Positions 39,501 through 54,710 of a stretch of DNA of 64,000 nt are shown piece after piece. The number at the start of each line of letters is the position of its first letter. Position 1 is the first letter of the stretch. The stretch spans positions 27,620 to 91,619 of the forward strand of contig MU621132.1 of assembly GCA_025399215.1 (NCBI GenBank), read 5' to 3'. Position numbers and translations under genes: made by a program. The DNA is from Globomyces pollinis-pini. Taxonomy: Eukaryota > Chytridiomycota > Chytridiomycetes > Rhizophydiales > Globomycetaceae. Below the pieces are notes generated by a model. The model saw only the letters and a program-made list of their open reading frames with translations. It made no database searches and was not told the DNA's origin.

Positions 39501-42500
39501 TCGAACTTGATTTTGGATTTCGACAGGGCTGAATGAGAGTAAATCTATTAAATTGGAGTAGATTATAGATTGATTGGAAGTTGATAATAAACTCCACCAT
39601 TTTGAATTGATTTGTTTTAAAGCTAAATCACAACAAACCACTTGTGCCGGGTTATCGTAATTCGACAATAACTTGCTAAACGTGATCAAAGCCAGTCCAG
39701 CTTTCTTGGAAAATAAATTATTGATGGTTTGAATTTGGAAACAAGAAACCAAGTTTTCCAAAAATGGAACAGCATAAGGATCAGATAAATATTCCATAGA
39801 TGATAATGATAGTTTCTGGTATTCCTTTTCAAGTACTGGTAAGATAAATCTAACCTTTTCAATACAATCGACGTTGGTTAATAATCCCAAAAGAATAGAT
39901 TGACTAAATTTATCACTAAATGCGAGTGTGTTGGATAAGAAATAATCCAATAGATCTTGTTGGATTTTGTCTTTACCAGATTTGTTGCTGGAGACTAAAA
40001 AGTGGATCATATTCAATGCCAAATAATTTTCATCCGTCACAATCTCGTGTGAAGTTTCAATTAAATCAGTAACGAATTTACGAATAGAAGCAATATTCAA
40101 ATACTGAACTTGATTGGATTTCGCGCCATAAAAAGTACCATGACCATATATAGAAGACACTGATGGGTTTTTCTTTTTCAATTTCGATAATGTCAATAAC
40201 AAAGTCTTCAAACATGTAATTGAGTTCACACGTACGGATTGATCACGATTCAGTAAACAAATCATAACACTTGGTAAAATGATTTGATAATCTTTTTCAG
40301 AATCGATACTGGTAATCATGAATTGATTTGCTAATTGTAAAACGCAATTTTGAATCATTGGGTTCATATCAACACTAGTTGCAATTGAGAAACAGAATTC
40401 AAGGAAATGGGTTTGGATATGCGTACTGATAAATAGCGCCAATGGTTCTCGGAAATGATTCTTACCCAACAAGAAAATCAACTTGAATATGGTAATCATT
40501 AATGATTCGTATGATTCCTATTGAAAATTAACTATAGAAAATTTACATCTTGTTTATGGAACCATACTGGATCAGTTTTGGCAGGAATGCTTTGAATTAA
40601 ATTCACTAAAACCAAAATCCACATCATTTTTTCAAATTCAGCCAATCCGGCACGTTCCAAAGTCTTCAAATTTTCCAAAGGCATACCATCCTAACATCAA
40701 TCAATCTTTAAAATACCTTTAAAGCTGTTGCCCCGAATGGCTTCAATTTACGTATATAGTTCTTGGACATGTATTGTTTTTCCAAAACTGGAAGTAACAA
40801 TCGAACGAGGTTTAAATCCAATGAACTTGAAAATGTAGCAATATAATGGTTAATGACATTCATAGAGAAGACTCTCATTGGTAAGCAAGTTGATTTGAAA
40901 CCATTGATAAAATATTTGAAGTTGAATTCAGTTTGTTTTGACAATTGTGAAGTGATGGTGTGGACGATATTAAATAACGTAAACTGATCCTTTTTAGCTG
41001 ATGAAAAATCAATATTGATTAACTTCAAGATTTTGGGAACCAACTTGTTGTAATCTTGGGATTTCGTGATATCCTATGATAAGTTCAGAATCGTTACGAT
41101 GGTGAGTAAGGTTGATACGACAGAATGAATCAAATCATCTGATACAAGATTAACATTCAAAGCAACTAAATCAAACACAGCATTCAACGCTTTTAATAAA
41201 ATCTGTACGGTTGGTGCATTAACGACAAGCGACAGCAATGATTTCAAAAGAGTAGCATGATGAATGTAAGTGGACAATTTCAAGTCTAAAACCAAGTCAA
41301 TAATATCAGAACTAGAATCATTTAGGAATGAAGTTAAAGTTGATTCCAAGAATGATTTCATATCCGCCACAACATCTTGATCATCATCTAAAAGTAAATC
41401 TTTTAATTTTTCCAAGGAAGTTAATCTGATGTTTGAGTTTTCATGGATAAGACCGAGGTAGAGACTGGTGTTGCTATCTTCTAAAGTTTCATTCAATGAG
41501 CCTTTGAAAATAGAATTAAGAATATTTTGCCATGCGGCTTTGACCTTCTTTGACGGTTTGCACTCCTAGGAGTTGAGTTAATGGTAAAATGAACCAAACC
41601 TTAAATAATTGATCTATGGCGGCATCAATTTCAGCAAATCGTTGATTTTGTACTCTCTGAATAAGCAATACCGCCGAATTGTCCTCGTCCATAGCATCTT
41701 GCATATCTTCAGGTGTAGCATCATCATGTAATAAAGACCGTAACAATTCTACTAAGAAAGATTGAACACAATCGGAATTAACATCAGTGTTTGCAAGAAC
41801 AAAGGCAGCGATGTCAAAGGCAGATACATGCATGTTGTTCAACATAACAGCAACAAGTGAATGAGAGAAAGCTTTCATAAATACGGCAGTTTCAAACTTA
41901 GATAGAATTCTTTTCAATTCAACTTGAAGGTTTCTAAATTTAGTGATTGGTATGCGTTACGTTTGATTCAAGATGTTACGAATGGCTGACTGTGGGAATG
42001 ACTCTATTGTTTGATTTTGAAATAAAGTGACGAGACAAAGCAATGTCACGTAGAGATTTTCGGTGATGATATTCTCGGTGATAGCTTCGATTAAACGACT
42101 TAGGACATCTGAGTCAAATACAACCTTTTTGGATAATAAACCTACAGTTCAGTGAAGGTCGTTCAATACCTATCATTAATTACAAGGAAATTACCTAATA
42201 GCATTTGCATCGTAGCCCGGAATTCCAAATCACTAGAAGCCAATCCTTGCAATAAATGGGGTAAGATCAATCTCAAATGATTATCAGTAACAATTTTCAA
42301 AGCGTGGTAAAAGTTAATGACAATGGTTGCATAAAAGCATTCTAGATTTTTGTTTACTAGTCCAGAGTTTCTACTTTCAGCTGCCTATAAATATTAGCAT
42401 GGTCACTTCACGGAAGAAGTTAAAAAAACAGAAAGTAAATTGAAATGTAATGATGAGAATGAAAATAAACATGAGCAAATTCAAATATGAAATGTACAGA

Positions 42501-43179: not shown

Positions 43180-43939
43180 TCATATTGTTCCCACTGACCA
43201 TATATCCAAATCATCTAATTTACGTACCATATCCTTAGTCAACACTGTCACTGGTTGGACACTACGCGACTGAATAGTTTGTGTGGTATTGCCAAGAACC
43301 TAACAATAAATTAACTCATCATACCATCCTATTATGTCAGTAACATAAGTTTACTTGGACAGCCAGGTCTGGTCTTCATTATCAAGGAAAAGTACTACTC
43401 GTCTTGGATTTAAGCTGGTGATTAAATTTATGACATGCTCCGCTTGATCTGATTTGTTTCTCTCTATATCCACTCTGAATTCGAAATCCTGTCGTTTAGA
43501 GTCTGATTTTGCTATGGTTGCGATTGCTTGTAATCGTATTGATAATGCATGAGCTTCCTTTGCCTTTAAAGCAGCTACTCATAAAAACTCCATTAAATTA
43601 CCTAATCATTCAGATTAATTACTCGATCGTCAGTTACCTATACATTAAATCCTTTGTTGAATACCTAAATCATTAAATGATTACTGGTTACCTATACATA
43701 AGTACTAAAATAGATACCTAAATAGAATGAATTTAAAGCTAATTACCAAAGCCGTCAGTAGAACGACCACCAGGAACTTGAGGTTAAATAACATAGAATT
43801 TACTAGAAGGATACGCACAACCAGCAATGACAAGAGTATCACCAGCAGCTACCACTGATTTAATAGTCCATAGGATAGCAGGGCCTACTAGAGCACTTTC
43901 ATCTACAGCTAGCAGTACAGTTTGAGAATGGTCATTCAT
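43180..43939 (-). CDS. Universal stress protein (UspA family)
   Basis: Small nucleotide-binding-fold protein of about 169 residues, missed by simple reading-frame search because its exons are short. Exons, in order of transcription: 43804-43939, 43747-43776, 43355-43574, 43325-43328 (4 nt) and 43180-43299. The protein starts with the family's first strand (QTVLLAVDES) and continues with GPAILWTIKSVV, DTLVIAG, then helix AALKAKEAHALSIRLQAIAT, a strand near RVVLFLDNE, and ends with the conserved SKMVLGNTTQTI...PVTVL glycine-loop/strand block. The intron pattern is exceptional: 27 nt, a 172-nt six-unit array, then 26 nt and 25 nt around a 4-nt exon. It shares a 50-bp divergent promoter with dymeclin. 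Function in fungi is unclear; usually stress-linked. Confidence 0.8.
43325..43328 (-). other. 4-nt microexon GATG in the universal stress protein gene
   Basis: The upstream exon ends in phase 2 (TCC AA). Only by including GATG, flanked by introns of 26 nt (43329-43354, with CTGAC) and 25 nt (43300-43324), does the following exon fall into the frame that gives the conserved VLGNTTQTI block. Treating the interval as one 55-nt intron gives a wrong frame. Confidence 0.7.
43575..43746 (-). repeat. Six-unit tandem intron array in the universal stress protein gene
   Basis: The 172-nt intron divides without remainder into six units, each beginning GTA and ending TAG in the transcribed direction: 43718-43746 (29), 43692-43717 (26), 43665-43691 (27), 43638-43664 (27), 43602-43637 (36) and 43575-43601 (27). 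Each has the normal intron length of this genome. Several share the core ATTTAATG. Removing the whole array leaves the frame intact (phase 1), and the flanking exons read as USP. Confidence 0.85.
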
Positions 43940-50630: not shown

Positions 50631-52211
50631 TTATTGTTTATAGAACTGTTCACGCTCTGATAAAAACAATTTCGCATTAGATTCAATAATGCTTGAAATA
50701 GCAGCGTTATTAGTATTTGGTGGGCCTGGAGTAACCAAACATAATTGATTGCCATCTAAAAGAGTCCATTTACCAGGTTCTACTACATTAATGATAACTA
50801 AATATACCAGAAGCTAACTAATTAGTAAAAGTTTAGTCATACCCCATTCATGTAAGTCAGCAACCTCACTTTCAGGGTCGTATTTACTCTTTGTAATACC
50901 ACCATTGATCCAAAGTGGTTGCTTATCTTCATCTAAATGTAATATTTGTGTTCCACACATGACATATTCATTCTCTCTAACTGAACTGGTACCCGCAACA
51001 CCAGGCAAATTTGCATTGAAACTATAAAGAGCACGTACTGTTTCAAACCCTATCCAAAACGTTTCCTATCTTTAGAACTCGATCATTATTACTTTATCAC
51101 CATGGAATTTTGAGTAAGATTGTTTTTGATAGACAGCACTGTTTAGGGTACAAACAGTCATTAATCCAACAAAATTCTTCATCTAACTCATTAACTCAAC
51201 AAGACTTACTTTATCAATCAAAACCACTCCAGATTCCATTTCATGAGCTGTTTTCTGATTAAAGAGTCTTAGATCTTTCATAGTTGAAGTCATTTCTCCA
51301 ACAATATGTTTGACCCAATCAAGTGATACTTGATTTTTTATGAATAACGATCGATCATGAAAAAAGAAGGCACCAGTTCGTTTATATGATTCCAAATCGA
51401 ACAATTTTTCGGGAGGTTGTAGAAATACGACATCTGCATCCATTAGCATTGCATGACGAAACGAAGAAGCTAGTAATGCAAATGGTTTGATTGCCTATAA
51501 AATGAATCAACGGTGAAGAGTATTACCCATCCTATTCATGAGATGGATATTCAATTACCTTTGATTTTTAAAATGGAATTATTGAATATCTTTGTAATAT
51601 CTATGGTCGTTACAAATGGAATTTCTTCCAACAGCTTTCTATTCTTGACTGATAGATCATCATCCCCAACATAAAAGATTTCAAAAGGTAAATTAGATTT
51701 TAGATTTTGTCGAATCATTTTCATAGTAGTCAAAGCCAGTAGTGTATATCCATTATTAACACACAGCACTATGCCTGTTCCATTGAAACTTTGATGTAAT
51801 TCAATTGAATCGGAATACTTTGGCATGATCCAAGGAAATAATTTATGATCAAGTACACCAGCTAAATGAGATAATTGAATAGAATTGGAATAAGAATCAT
51901 TGAGATTTGCTAAATGAACCTGTGAATATAATCGTAATTGTTTCCCATGGATTGAAATATCATTTTGATCATTTTGAATTGATAATAAATCCTTTTGATC
52001 TTCAGATAATTGAAAGTTGATGGTTTCTTTCAAGATTGTTTTTTGTTCTAGTATTTGAACTGTATTCGGTTTAGTAGTCCAATACCAAGTCATAAAGATA
52101 ATGAATGAAATGCATATCACCACGTTTCTCTTCCTCCTTGCACTTAAGGAAAACACGACCTTGTTCAAATCTGGAAATGTTAGTTACAAACTCGTTACTG
52201 TTGACTCTCAT
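50631..52211 (-). CDS. GT71 alpha-mannosyltransferase (MNN1-like), upstream copy of a tandem pair
   Basis: Type II Golgi membrane protein that adds mannose to glycoproteins. The first exon (ATG at 52211, four codons) joins through a 28-nt intron with CTAAC to a Lys/Arg-rich cytosolic segment and one TM helix (VVICISFIIFMTWYW). The catalytic domain contains GIVLCVNNGYTLLALTTMKM, FEIFYVGDDDLS, the metal-binding DxD as LMDADVVFLQ, and HEMESGVVLIDK, typical of Mannosyl_trans3/GT71 enzymes. A conserved segment near the C terminus (PLWINGGITKSKYD) is shared with the second copy. It ends with FYKQ. Several introns of about 25-35 nt. Confidence 0.82.
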
Positions 52212-52627: not shown

Positions 52628-54163
52628 TTATTGTTTGTAAAACTTTTCACGCTCCTCTACAAAAAGGTTGGAATTAGCTTCAATGACTTTAGCAATCTCA
52701 ATTGGATATGCATGTGGTGGGTCTTTTGTGACCAAGCACGCTTGATTTTCCTCTAATAGCTCCCATTCACCAGGTTCTATTAAATTAAAAAAATGTTGAT
52801 ATACCGGATGCTAAAGGTTAATATAAAAATCATACCCCATTCATGCAAGTCAGCAATCAAACTTTCAGGGTCGTATTTACTCTTTGTAATACCACCATTG
52901 ATCCACAATGGTCTTTTTTGTTCGTCTACATGTAACAATTGCATTCCACAAATTGAAAAATTTTCATCTTTCATTGAGCCAGTACCTGCAACACCTGGTA
53001 AATTTGTATTGAAACTATAAGGAGCTCTAACGGATTCAAAACCGGTCCAAAAAGTTTCCTGAGATAATTATTCGAGACATGTAATATTACTTTATCACCA
53101 TGGAAATGCACATAAGACTGACTTCGGAACGGAATACTGTTTAGAGAACAAACAGCGATCAACCCAACAAAGTTTTTGAGCTGGTATTTAAATATTAAAA
53201 CTATTTACCTTATCAATTACAACTACACCAGATTCCATCTCGTGGCCAGTTTTCTCATTAAAAAGTCTCAAATTTTTCATTGTTGGGGTCATTTCTCCGA
53301 CTAAATCCTTGACCCATTGTTGGGTAGTATCAGAACTTGTAAATAAGGATCGATCATGAAAGAAGAATGCACCAAATTTCTTGTACAAATCCAAGTTGAA
53401 CAATTTCTCGGGGGATTGTAGAAAGACGACATCTGCATCCATTAGCATAGCATGACGGAATGACGAAGCTAGTAATGCAAATGGTTTAATTGCCTAACTA
53501 TATTAGTGATAGACTATTACCCAGCCTAAAGAAAAGTAAAAAATCAACAAAATTACCTTCGATTTTTAAAATGGGGTTATTGAATATCTTTGTAATATCT
53601 TTGGTTGTTACAAATGGAATTTCTTCCAACAACTTTCTATTCTTGACTGATAAATCATCATCCCCAACATAAAAGATTTCAAAAGGCAAATTAGATTTTA
53701 AATTTTGTCGAATCATTTTCATAGTAGTCAAAGCCAGTAATGTATATCCATTATTAACACACAGCACTATGCCTGTTCCATTGTAGCTTTGGTGTAACTC
53801 GGCCGTAGAAGAATACTTTGGCATTATCCAGGGGAATAGTTTATAATCTACGACTCCAGCCAAATGAGACAGTTGAATATTATTTGAATAAGAGTTATTG
53901 AGAATTGCAGAGTGCACATGTGAATACAAACGTAAATGATTGCCATGAATAGATATTTCATCTTTATCATTCTGTAGCGATAGTAAATTCTTTTCGTGTG
54001 ATGATAAAATGAAATTGATTGAATCCTTAGGAATGAATTTTTGTTGTTTTAAGACTTCAGAATCATTTGATTTTTTGACTGTGAAATACCAAGTGAAAAA
54101 GATGAATATTGATAACAGTAACAAGATGGTACGTTTCCTTCTTCCACTCATTGAATTTAGCAT
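52628..54163 (-). CDS. GT71 alpha-mannosyltransferase (MNN1-like), second copy of a tandem pair
   Basis: Paralogue of the gene at 50631-52211 with the same layout: basic start (MSGRRKR), TM helix, GIVLCVNNGYTLLALTTMKM, DDDLSVKNRK, LMDADVVFLQ and HEMESGVVVIDK, and the ending FYKQ. The two catalytic cores are nearly identical at the DNA level over about 53580-53790 versus 51600-51780, while flanks differ more. The start at 54163 is the first ATG; a short upstream exon like that of its sister was not found. Confidence 0.82.
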
Positions 54164-54710
54164 TTTTGGTTCACCTAAAGGTTTAAAATTTGAATTAAAA
54201 ATCGAAAAACAACAGAATAGTGAAGATGAGACTATTAAATGATATCTAATTGTATTAGAAGTAGAAATACATTGTTCATACAGATAATTTTTAGTTCAAA
54301 TTGCACTGATGGCATCAATAAAAAAAATACTTACCACAAATTACTCTAAGAATCTTGCCTTTAATGAATTTGAATATTTGAATACCTTCCTTTGTATTCT
54401 TTTAATTTCCTGAATTGATATTCAACCTTTAGAAGCAAAAAATAAAAACACTGGATGAAACGTAAAAATAAAATTCATCCACGAAGATGGGAATGATAAG
54501 AAAATGAACTGGAAAATGTTTAAAGAAAATGAACTGGAAAGTGTTACTAAAGTCCCGGGTTTTTTAAATCCTTTGTATAGTAGATTCTGTATTGGAACGC
54601 GATGGATTAAAAGCTGTACATTTAAAAATTAAAAATGATATATACAACACACTAAAGTTGATTCAAATGATTTCAATGCAATTAAAAACGAATTTTATTT
54701 AAAAATTAAA
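54164..54710. other. Stretch without a recognised gene
   Basis: Contains a 77-codon plus-strand frame antisense to the GT71 start and nothing else I can support. Confidence 0.45.

Follow-up and report, generated by a model that had tools for sequence, protein, structure and literature searches.

A gene of the chytrid Globomyces pollinis-pini carries six complete introns arranged end to end, with no exon base between them, and arrays of the same build recur across the genome. In the stretch of 64,000 nucleotides analysed here (hereafter the window), this chain runs on the minus strand from 43746 to 43575. Our best reading, to which we give a probability of about three in four, is that the chain consists of six complete U2-type introns of minimal size separated by zero-length exons, that it was made by tandem duplication, and that its units are removed mostly one by one and in any order. 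The locus is composed of the following features; branch-like scores are given for each unit.

43180..43939, minus strand: Usp-like gene holding the chain (169-residue model, exons joined; chain-aware gene finder and Pfam Usp)
43777..43803, minus strand: ordinary intron of 27 nt upstream of the chain (gene finder)
43747..43776, minus strand: exon of 30 nt upstream of the chain, ending GGC TTT G in phase 1 (letters and gene finder)
43718..43746, minus strand: unit 1, GTA...TAG, 29 nt, middling branch-like score (3.35), in-frame stop if retained
43692..43717, minus strand: unit 2, 26 nt, weak branch-like score (2.89), in-frame stop if retained
43665..43691, minus strand: unit 3, 27 nt, branch-like TTAATG 6 nt from the unit end, good score (4.89), in-frame stop if retained
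43638..43664, minus strand: unit 4, 27 nt, branch-like TTAATG 5 nt from the unit end, good score (4.89), in-frame stop if retained
43602..43637, minus strand: unit 5, 36 nt, branch-like TTAATC 11 nt from the unit end, good score (4.48), in-frame stop if retained
43575..43601, minus strand: unit 6, 27 nt, weak branch-like score (2.02), in-frame stop if retained
43355..43574, minus strand: exon downstream of the chain, starting CT GCT TTA AAG (letters and gene finder)
43300..43354, minus strand: intron of 26 nt, exon of 4 nt (GATG, 43325-43328) and intron of 25 nt (gene finder)

The six GTA...TAG units add up to 172 nt and abut with 0 nt between them, so that AG is followed directly by GT at all five junctions. 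A preliminary description had reported this arrangement, and rechecking of the letters returned exactly the same coordinates, the same lengths and the same five TAG|GTA junctions. It had also judged the junction to be far above chance, which our shuffles bear out. Dinucleotide shuffling of the 172 nt, repeated 20,000 times, produced a TAGGTA count of four a single time and never the observed five. When the whole window was shuffled in this way 200 times, runs of TAGGTA at a spacing of 20-46 nt reached two at most, against five in the real sequence. Unit length is that of a normal intron, as had been proposed: 613 single introns of 21-38 nt, collected with a self-trained, chain-aware gene finder from the window and C1:1-200000, have a mean length of 28.2 nt (sd 2.7), and only the 36 nt of unit 5 lie in the upper tail. 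The core that several units were said to share is likewise present, since units 3, 4 and 6 contain ATTTAATG, as does just one of the 613 single introns. The flanking exons are in-frame, and the view of the stretch as six complete introns with zero-length exons inside a coding gene is supported.

By its sequence, the host gene can be called Usp-like, not a proven Usp. The model matched the Pfam Usp profile with an E-value of 0.00028 over profile positions 3-140 of 141 and scored 21.9 bits (gathering cut-off 24) with the residue contributed by the 4-nt exon GATG, compared with 16.2 bits without it. Taken alone, the part of the model upstream of the chain gave no Pfam match and the part downstream only HupH_C (E 0.057). 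A protein search in which 173 candidates of similar length and with shared short words were scored yielded no homolog, and a solved-structure search only a chance-like antibody match (E 0.036); both used the query without the GATG-exon residue. The name is therefore limited to Usp-like, given the missing homolog in the protein search and a Usp match just under the cut-off. Under a harsher link penalty the gene score fell to 36.4, below the cut of 40, while its six units were still called. Elsewhere in the window, two open frames on the minus strand (51551-52183 and 53498-54295) share long identical stretches and apparently represent a duplicated gene.

The species is borne out by elongation factor 3, of which a stretch of 742 residues is 100% identical to the Globomyces pollinis-pini protein; Aphelidium insulamus, considered as a source, was discarded in view of its published GC content of 52%. 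Introns are short in this organism. In the window together with C1:1-200000, the self-trained gene finder called 577 introns with a mode of 27-28 nt. In the set of 613 single introns, 85% begin with GTA and 75% end with TAG, and a motif search recovered a branch-like motif of about YTRAY, with a median of 6 nt between the end of the motif and the end of the intron. A full-length U2 snRNA was found (135 bits), which points to a major spliceosome, and U12 was not found in the genome in a search run without a positive control. With a GT donor, a branch site and an AG acceptor in each, the window units appear to fit U2-type spliceosomal introns, although two of the six have weak branch motifs; on average, chain units match the single introns. 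Upstream AG flanks were not enriched at chains (7 of 24 chains versus 172 of 613 single introns), and downstream GT flanks were enriched weakly (6 of 24 versus 54 of 613; p 0.02, with two tests made).

The chain in the window is no lone oddity. Searching the 18.5-Mb genome for TAGGTA triplets gave 107 matches at a period of 20-46 nt and three at 68-94 nt, and all three of the latter fall within two long arrays. With the shorter word AGGTA and spacing windows of equal width, we counted 304 triplets at 23-36 nt, 13 at 38-51 nt and 10 at 9-22 nt; matches overlap in long arrays, so 304 does not equal the number of arrays. For TAGGTA doublets, 91 of the 100 listed out of 406 matches fall within a period of 25-36 nt, narrower than the permitted 20-46 nt. 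Controls with the reversed pattern were mixed. At intron spacing the reversed pattern was rarer (20 versus 107 for TAGGTA triplets, 110 versus 304 for AGGTA), but it was commoner at the control spacings (23 versus 3 at 68-94 nt, 75 versus 13 at 38-51 nt, 95 versus 10 at 9-22 nt) and for doublets (467 versus 406). The reason is that ATGGAT, the word reversed, outnumbers TAGGTA by a factor of about 2.5 (207 versus 83 in C1:1-200000). We therefore base recurrence on the spacing controls.

Inspection of the loci L001-L030 resolved 20 distinct arrays. In all 20 the gene finder placed abutting AG|GT units of 24-40 nt that tile from exon to exon, in a predicted gene and on its sense strand, and when 12 of these arrays were read on the opposite strand, none yielded a chain. 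Chain lengths range from 52 to 285 nt. AG|GT occupies all 90 junctions of 27 chains, where it stands by construction of the tiling, and in the TAGGTA arrays the pattern search itself selects for junction quality. On the same contig as the window but outside it, a second chain of five units lies in a UBC7/UBE2G gene (C43:23831-23985, about 47 kb from the first).

The frequency of chains was estimated by gene finding in 264 kb, comprising the window, which had been chosen for its chain, and C1:1-200000, the start of the largest contig seen. Introns with at least two units at gap 0 made up 23 of 674 calls. When gaps of 1 to 7 nt were forced between units, 8, 5, 6, 8, 11, 7 and 6 multi-unit introns were obtained (mean 7.3); hence about 16 of the 23 are real, and two-unit calls are doubtful. 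Chains of at least three units numbered five at gap 0 and two in all seven gap controls combined, and one of these two is a genuine repeat of exon and intron. C1:1-200000 alone accounts for 20 multi-unit introns among 546, four of them with at least three units. The harsher link penalty left nine of 661; genes scoring below 40 are omitted from the 674 and 661 calls. A count of strong unit pairs by gap gave six at gap 0 versus 0-5 elsewhere at the loosest threshold and almost nothing at stricter ones, numbers too few to use. As a rough extrapolation from one 200-kb stretch, the genome may hold several hundred to over a thousand chains.

How the units leave the transcript can be argued from their anatomy. 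The units abut at AG|GT, and each has its own donor, acceptor and branch-site-like motif. Removal of any unit, or of a run from one donor to a later acceptor, would leave a shorter chain of complete units, and since a zero-length exon adds nothing, every order of splicing should give the same mRNA. Removal is probably mostly unit by unit, which would be recursive splicing in the wide sense. Alternatively, splicing could pair the first donor with the last acceptor and excise the 172 nt as one intron in a single step, with the inner units persisting as relics of duplication. The spliceosome of this organism is evidently able to excise longer introns, because plain ones of 79 nt in UBC7 (no internal AGGT) and 159 nt in MCM8 (one internal AGGT) exist, where the homologs are continuous. 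Single calls longer than 40 nt amount to 35 of 674 and so exceed the 23 multi-unit calls in number, although many of the longest resemble fused genes. Some mixture of both modes of removal is thus likely.

The two modes make different predictions for the inner units. Branch motifs kept in units that no longer resemble each other are expected if unit-wise use is under selection, but not if chains are removed in one step and their inner units are dead. In 63 inner units from 27 chains, the branch score was 3.95, as in single introns (3.95), compared with 2.50 in shuffled inner units. These units had been placed by a gene finder that itself weighs branch positions, and we therefore repeated the comparison on units delimited by the TAGGTA pattern alone. 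The 59 pattern-delimited units, six of them counted twice through the overlapping loci L011 and L012, scored 3.98, versus 3.92 for single introns (p 0.89) and 2.52 for shuffles (p 2e-10). With the four loci that hold like units set aside, the remaining 41 units (none of them counted twice) still scored 3.73, which differs from the shuffles (2.52; p 5e-6) and not from single introns (p 0.29). Their distance from motif to unit end was kept as well, with a median of 7 nt compared with 10 nt after shuffling (p 7e-4). In the branch and likeness tests, the first units of L012 and L007 were dropped as coding, and one chain that C1 and L001 share entered the counts a single time. GTA..TAG spans outside genes (n=576) have a branch score of 2.06, but they are richer in GC than inner units (0.350 versus 0.277), so the comparison rests on shuffles instead. 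Together with a unit length that stays intron-like, as in the 25-36 nt period of the doublets, these data argue against removal in one step as the usual route, which we regard as unlikely.

We then considered the origin of the chains. Within chains, about 10% of unit pairs exceed a likeness of z 3, whereas between chains only 0.5% of 400 pairs do so, which is background. A pair above z 3.5 occurs in four of the 27 chains. The same holds for 10 of 40 further arrays, one of them with an identical pair; these 40 derive from 59 of 70 listed triplet matches, the remaining 11 overlapping included ones, and the triplet listing holds the best 100 of 107 matches. Three chains searched against the whole genome had no second copy. 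Given this likeness within chains and the lack of second copies, tandem duplication of an intron fits better than dispersal as judged from the sequences. For the class, the suggestion in the preliminary description that an intron multiplied in tandem thus gains support. The window chain itself is not among the arrays with like units: no pair of its six units exceeds z 3.5, so that sequence likeness does not establish their common descent. Apart from ATTTAATG in three units no likeness survives there, and the mode of origin is taken from the class.

Growth by insertion would be another route, in which unrelated introns or introner-like elements entered at an AG|GT junction. The 23 of 27 chains and 30 of 40 further arrays without a pair above z 3.5 would be compatible with such a history. 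Introners consist of dispersed similar copies and are a source of many introns in one genome. The chains resemble them in that many introns arise in one genome, but differ in that none of the three chains searched has a dispersed copy. As likeness between chains stays at background while similar and even identical neighbouring units exist, we consider insertion rather improbable.

Under tandem duplication, a single intron would be duplicated at its own ends and grow into a chain, to at least 10 units. Order-independent splicing would make this growth nearly neutral, which would explain long chains; units would then diverge while selection keeps their splice and branch sites. It seems moderately probable that the chains are a genome-wide class of intron array. 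In this class a minimal intron would multiply head to tail, reaching up to ten copies joined at AG|GT, since order-independent splicing renders each addition almost neutral. The number of introns would grow as in a tandem repeat, and splicing at the level of units would keep all copies functional after their likeness is lost.

A repeat of introns together with exons was seen at one locus. On the minus strand of C1, a LAMMER/CLK-like kinase gene (L033, around C1:21683-21966; named from reading of the model sequence) has six introns of 25-29 nt between repeated 15-nt exons (YDDRR). This repeat was recognised by eye; run at gap 0, the gene finder picks up just four of the six introns. Further on, the same gene contains a five-unit intron chain.

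To examine whether the exons flanking an array join correctly, we aligned the genes of eight of the 20 arrays with homologs. The join was gap-free in five, and a small gap lies close to it in three:

UBC7/UBE2G, 5 units: join EIWHPN^VHENGDV, gap-free
CSTF64-type RRM, 4 units: join gap-free; the printed alignment is with another RRM protein
SSU72, 4 units: join GTGSA^VRLPG, gap-free; two more units downstream
DCP1, 4 units: join gap-free; three more units downstream
PhyH, 10 units, 285 nt: join IFK^QPDIGG, gap-free after one edge was moved
VPS35, 3 units: gap of 4 residues within three residues of the join
MCM8, 6 units: gap of 1 residue within three residues of the join, corrected edge
CDC23, 7 units: gap of 2 residues within three residues of the join

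For PhyH and MCM8, the homologs reveal that the first unit placed by the gene finder at the 5' edge is coding and surplus to the array, and the comparisons use the corrected edge. In VPS35, a separate two-unit call contains coding sequence that is present in the homolog. As such misplacements show, a call of just two units is frequently wrong.

The deposited Globomyces PhyH protein (P0121, 299 aa; C12 around 42085-42369, L012) contains an insert of 19 residues that corresponds to two intron units. Such a model might indicate that units serve as alternative exons, some being kept in frame for protein variants. However, the insert is absent from all seven other PhyH homologs aligned, each of the six window units, if retained singly, introduces an in-frame stop, and 76 of the 107 units that were called in 24 chains have lengths not divisible by three. 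A role as alternative exons is therefore highly improbable, and the deposited insert is probably an error of gene prediction. An in-frame stop occurs in 55 of the 107 units of these 24 chains, which exclude genes scoring below 40. Since neither stops nor length modulo three is a general mark of chain units, we make no argument from nonsense decay.

That the recurrence, or the chain itself, reflects an assembly artefact or chance has a negligible probability, since the few repeats of another kind among the AGGTA matches (for example a 23-nt repeat at C2:114782) stand against units that mostly differ from one another, spacing and shuffle controls that are far lower, and exon joins that agree with homologous proteins.

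The preliminary description had named twintrons or stwintrons and introner-like elements as nearest relatives; this we correct to abutting introns with zero-length exons that are removed by recursive splicing. Abutting introns of this sort are treated as a recognised type of complex intervening sequence in the part of PMC6616335 concerned with them, and ratcheting points with zero-length exons are described for Drosophila and mammals in passages of PMC2773006 and PMC5126111. As in the chains, an acceptor AG is directly followed by a donor GT in Drosophila, leaving a zero-length exon, but there, according to the same passage, very long introns are cut consecutively from the 5' end (PMC2773006), compared with chains of 52 to 285 nt here. 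Unlike the Drosophila case, the Globomyces chains string together up to ten minimal introns, each about 28 nt long; they occur at many loci, within the coding genes of a compact genome, and show signs of tandem duplication. Yeast snoRNA polycistrons come close in another respect. In the relevant section of PMC5033589, zero-size exons and two equivalent pathways are reported, so that a fungal spliceosome removes abutting introns and one cluster can be processed by either pathway with the same outcome. Their host RNA is noncoding, though, with two or three snoRNA-carrying introns and, in that section, no arrays of minimal introns (PMC5033589).

In stwintrons, as presented in passages of PMC12403724, PMC8469720, PMC6616335 and PMC7138796, one intron is nested in another, and the order of removal therefore matters. 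The chain units differ, as each is complete, with its own uninterrupted donor and acceptor, and none is nested. For Cryptococcus CNN00420, part of PMC2395259 describes intron gain by repeat expansion. As in our chains, duplication of a short piece of DNA multiplies an intron; there, however, the introns belong to a repetitive coding region, while chains have no exon in between. The C1 kinase gene with its repeated exons resembles this Cryptococcus expansion. One passage of PMC13391722 deals with the intron output of a gene finder, and a look-up of terms in PMC5639578 and PMC9860276 returned no match. Among the matches listed, in a search covering few subscription journals, no title or start of an abstract describes protein genes with arrays of minimal introns separated by zero-length exons. 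The chains probably work in the manner of recursive splicing at abutting introns, a known mechanism; the form with tiny units in many copies was not found in the literature searched.

Gene predictors mishandle chain loci, as the deposited PhyH protein with its 19 residues from two units illustrates. The arrays touch on two long-standing questions, namely where new introns come from and whether a zero-length exon is a usable intermediate of splicing in ordinary genes. A genome holding many short arrays of varied age, with copies ranging from identical to unrecognisable, would make both questions testable, and the recurring chains of Globomyces pollinis-pini provide a natural test of intron multiplication and successive excision.
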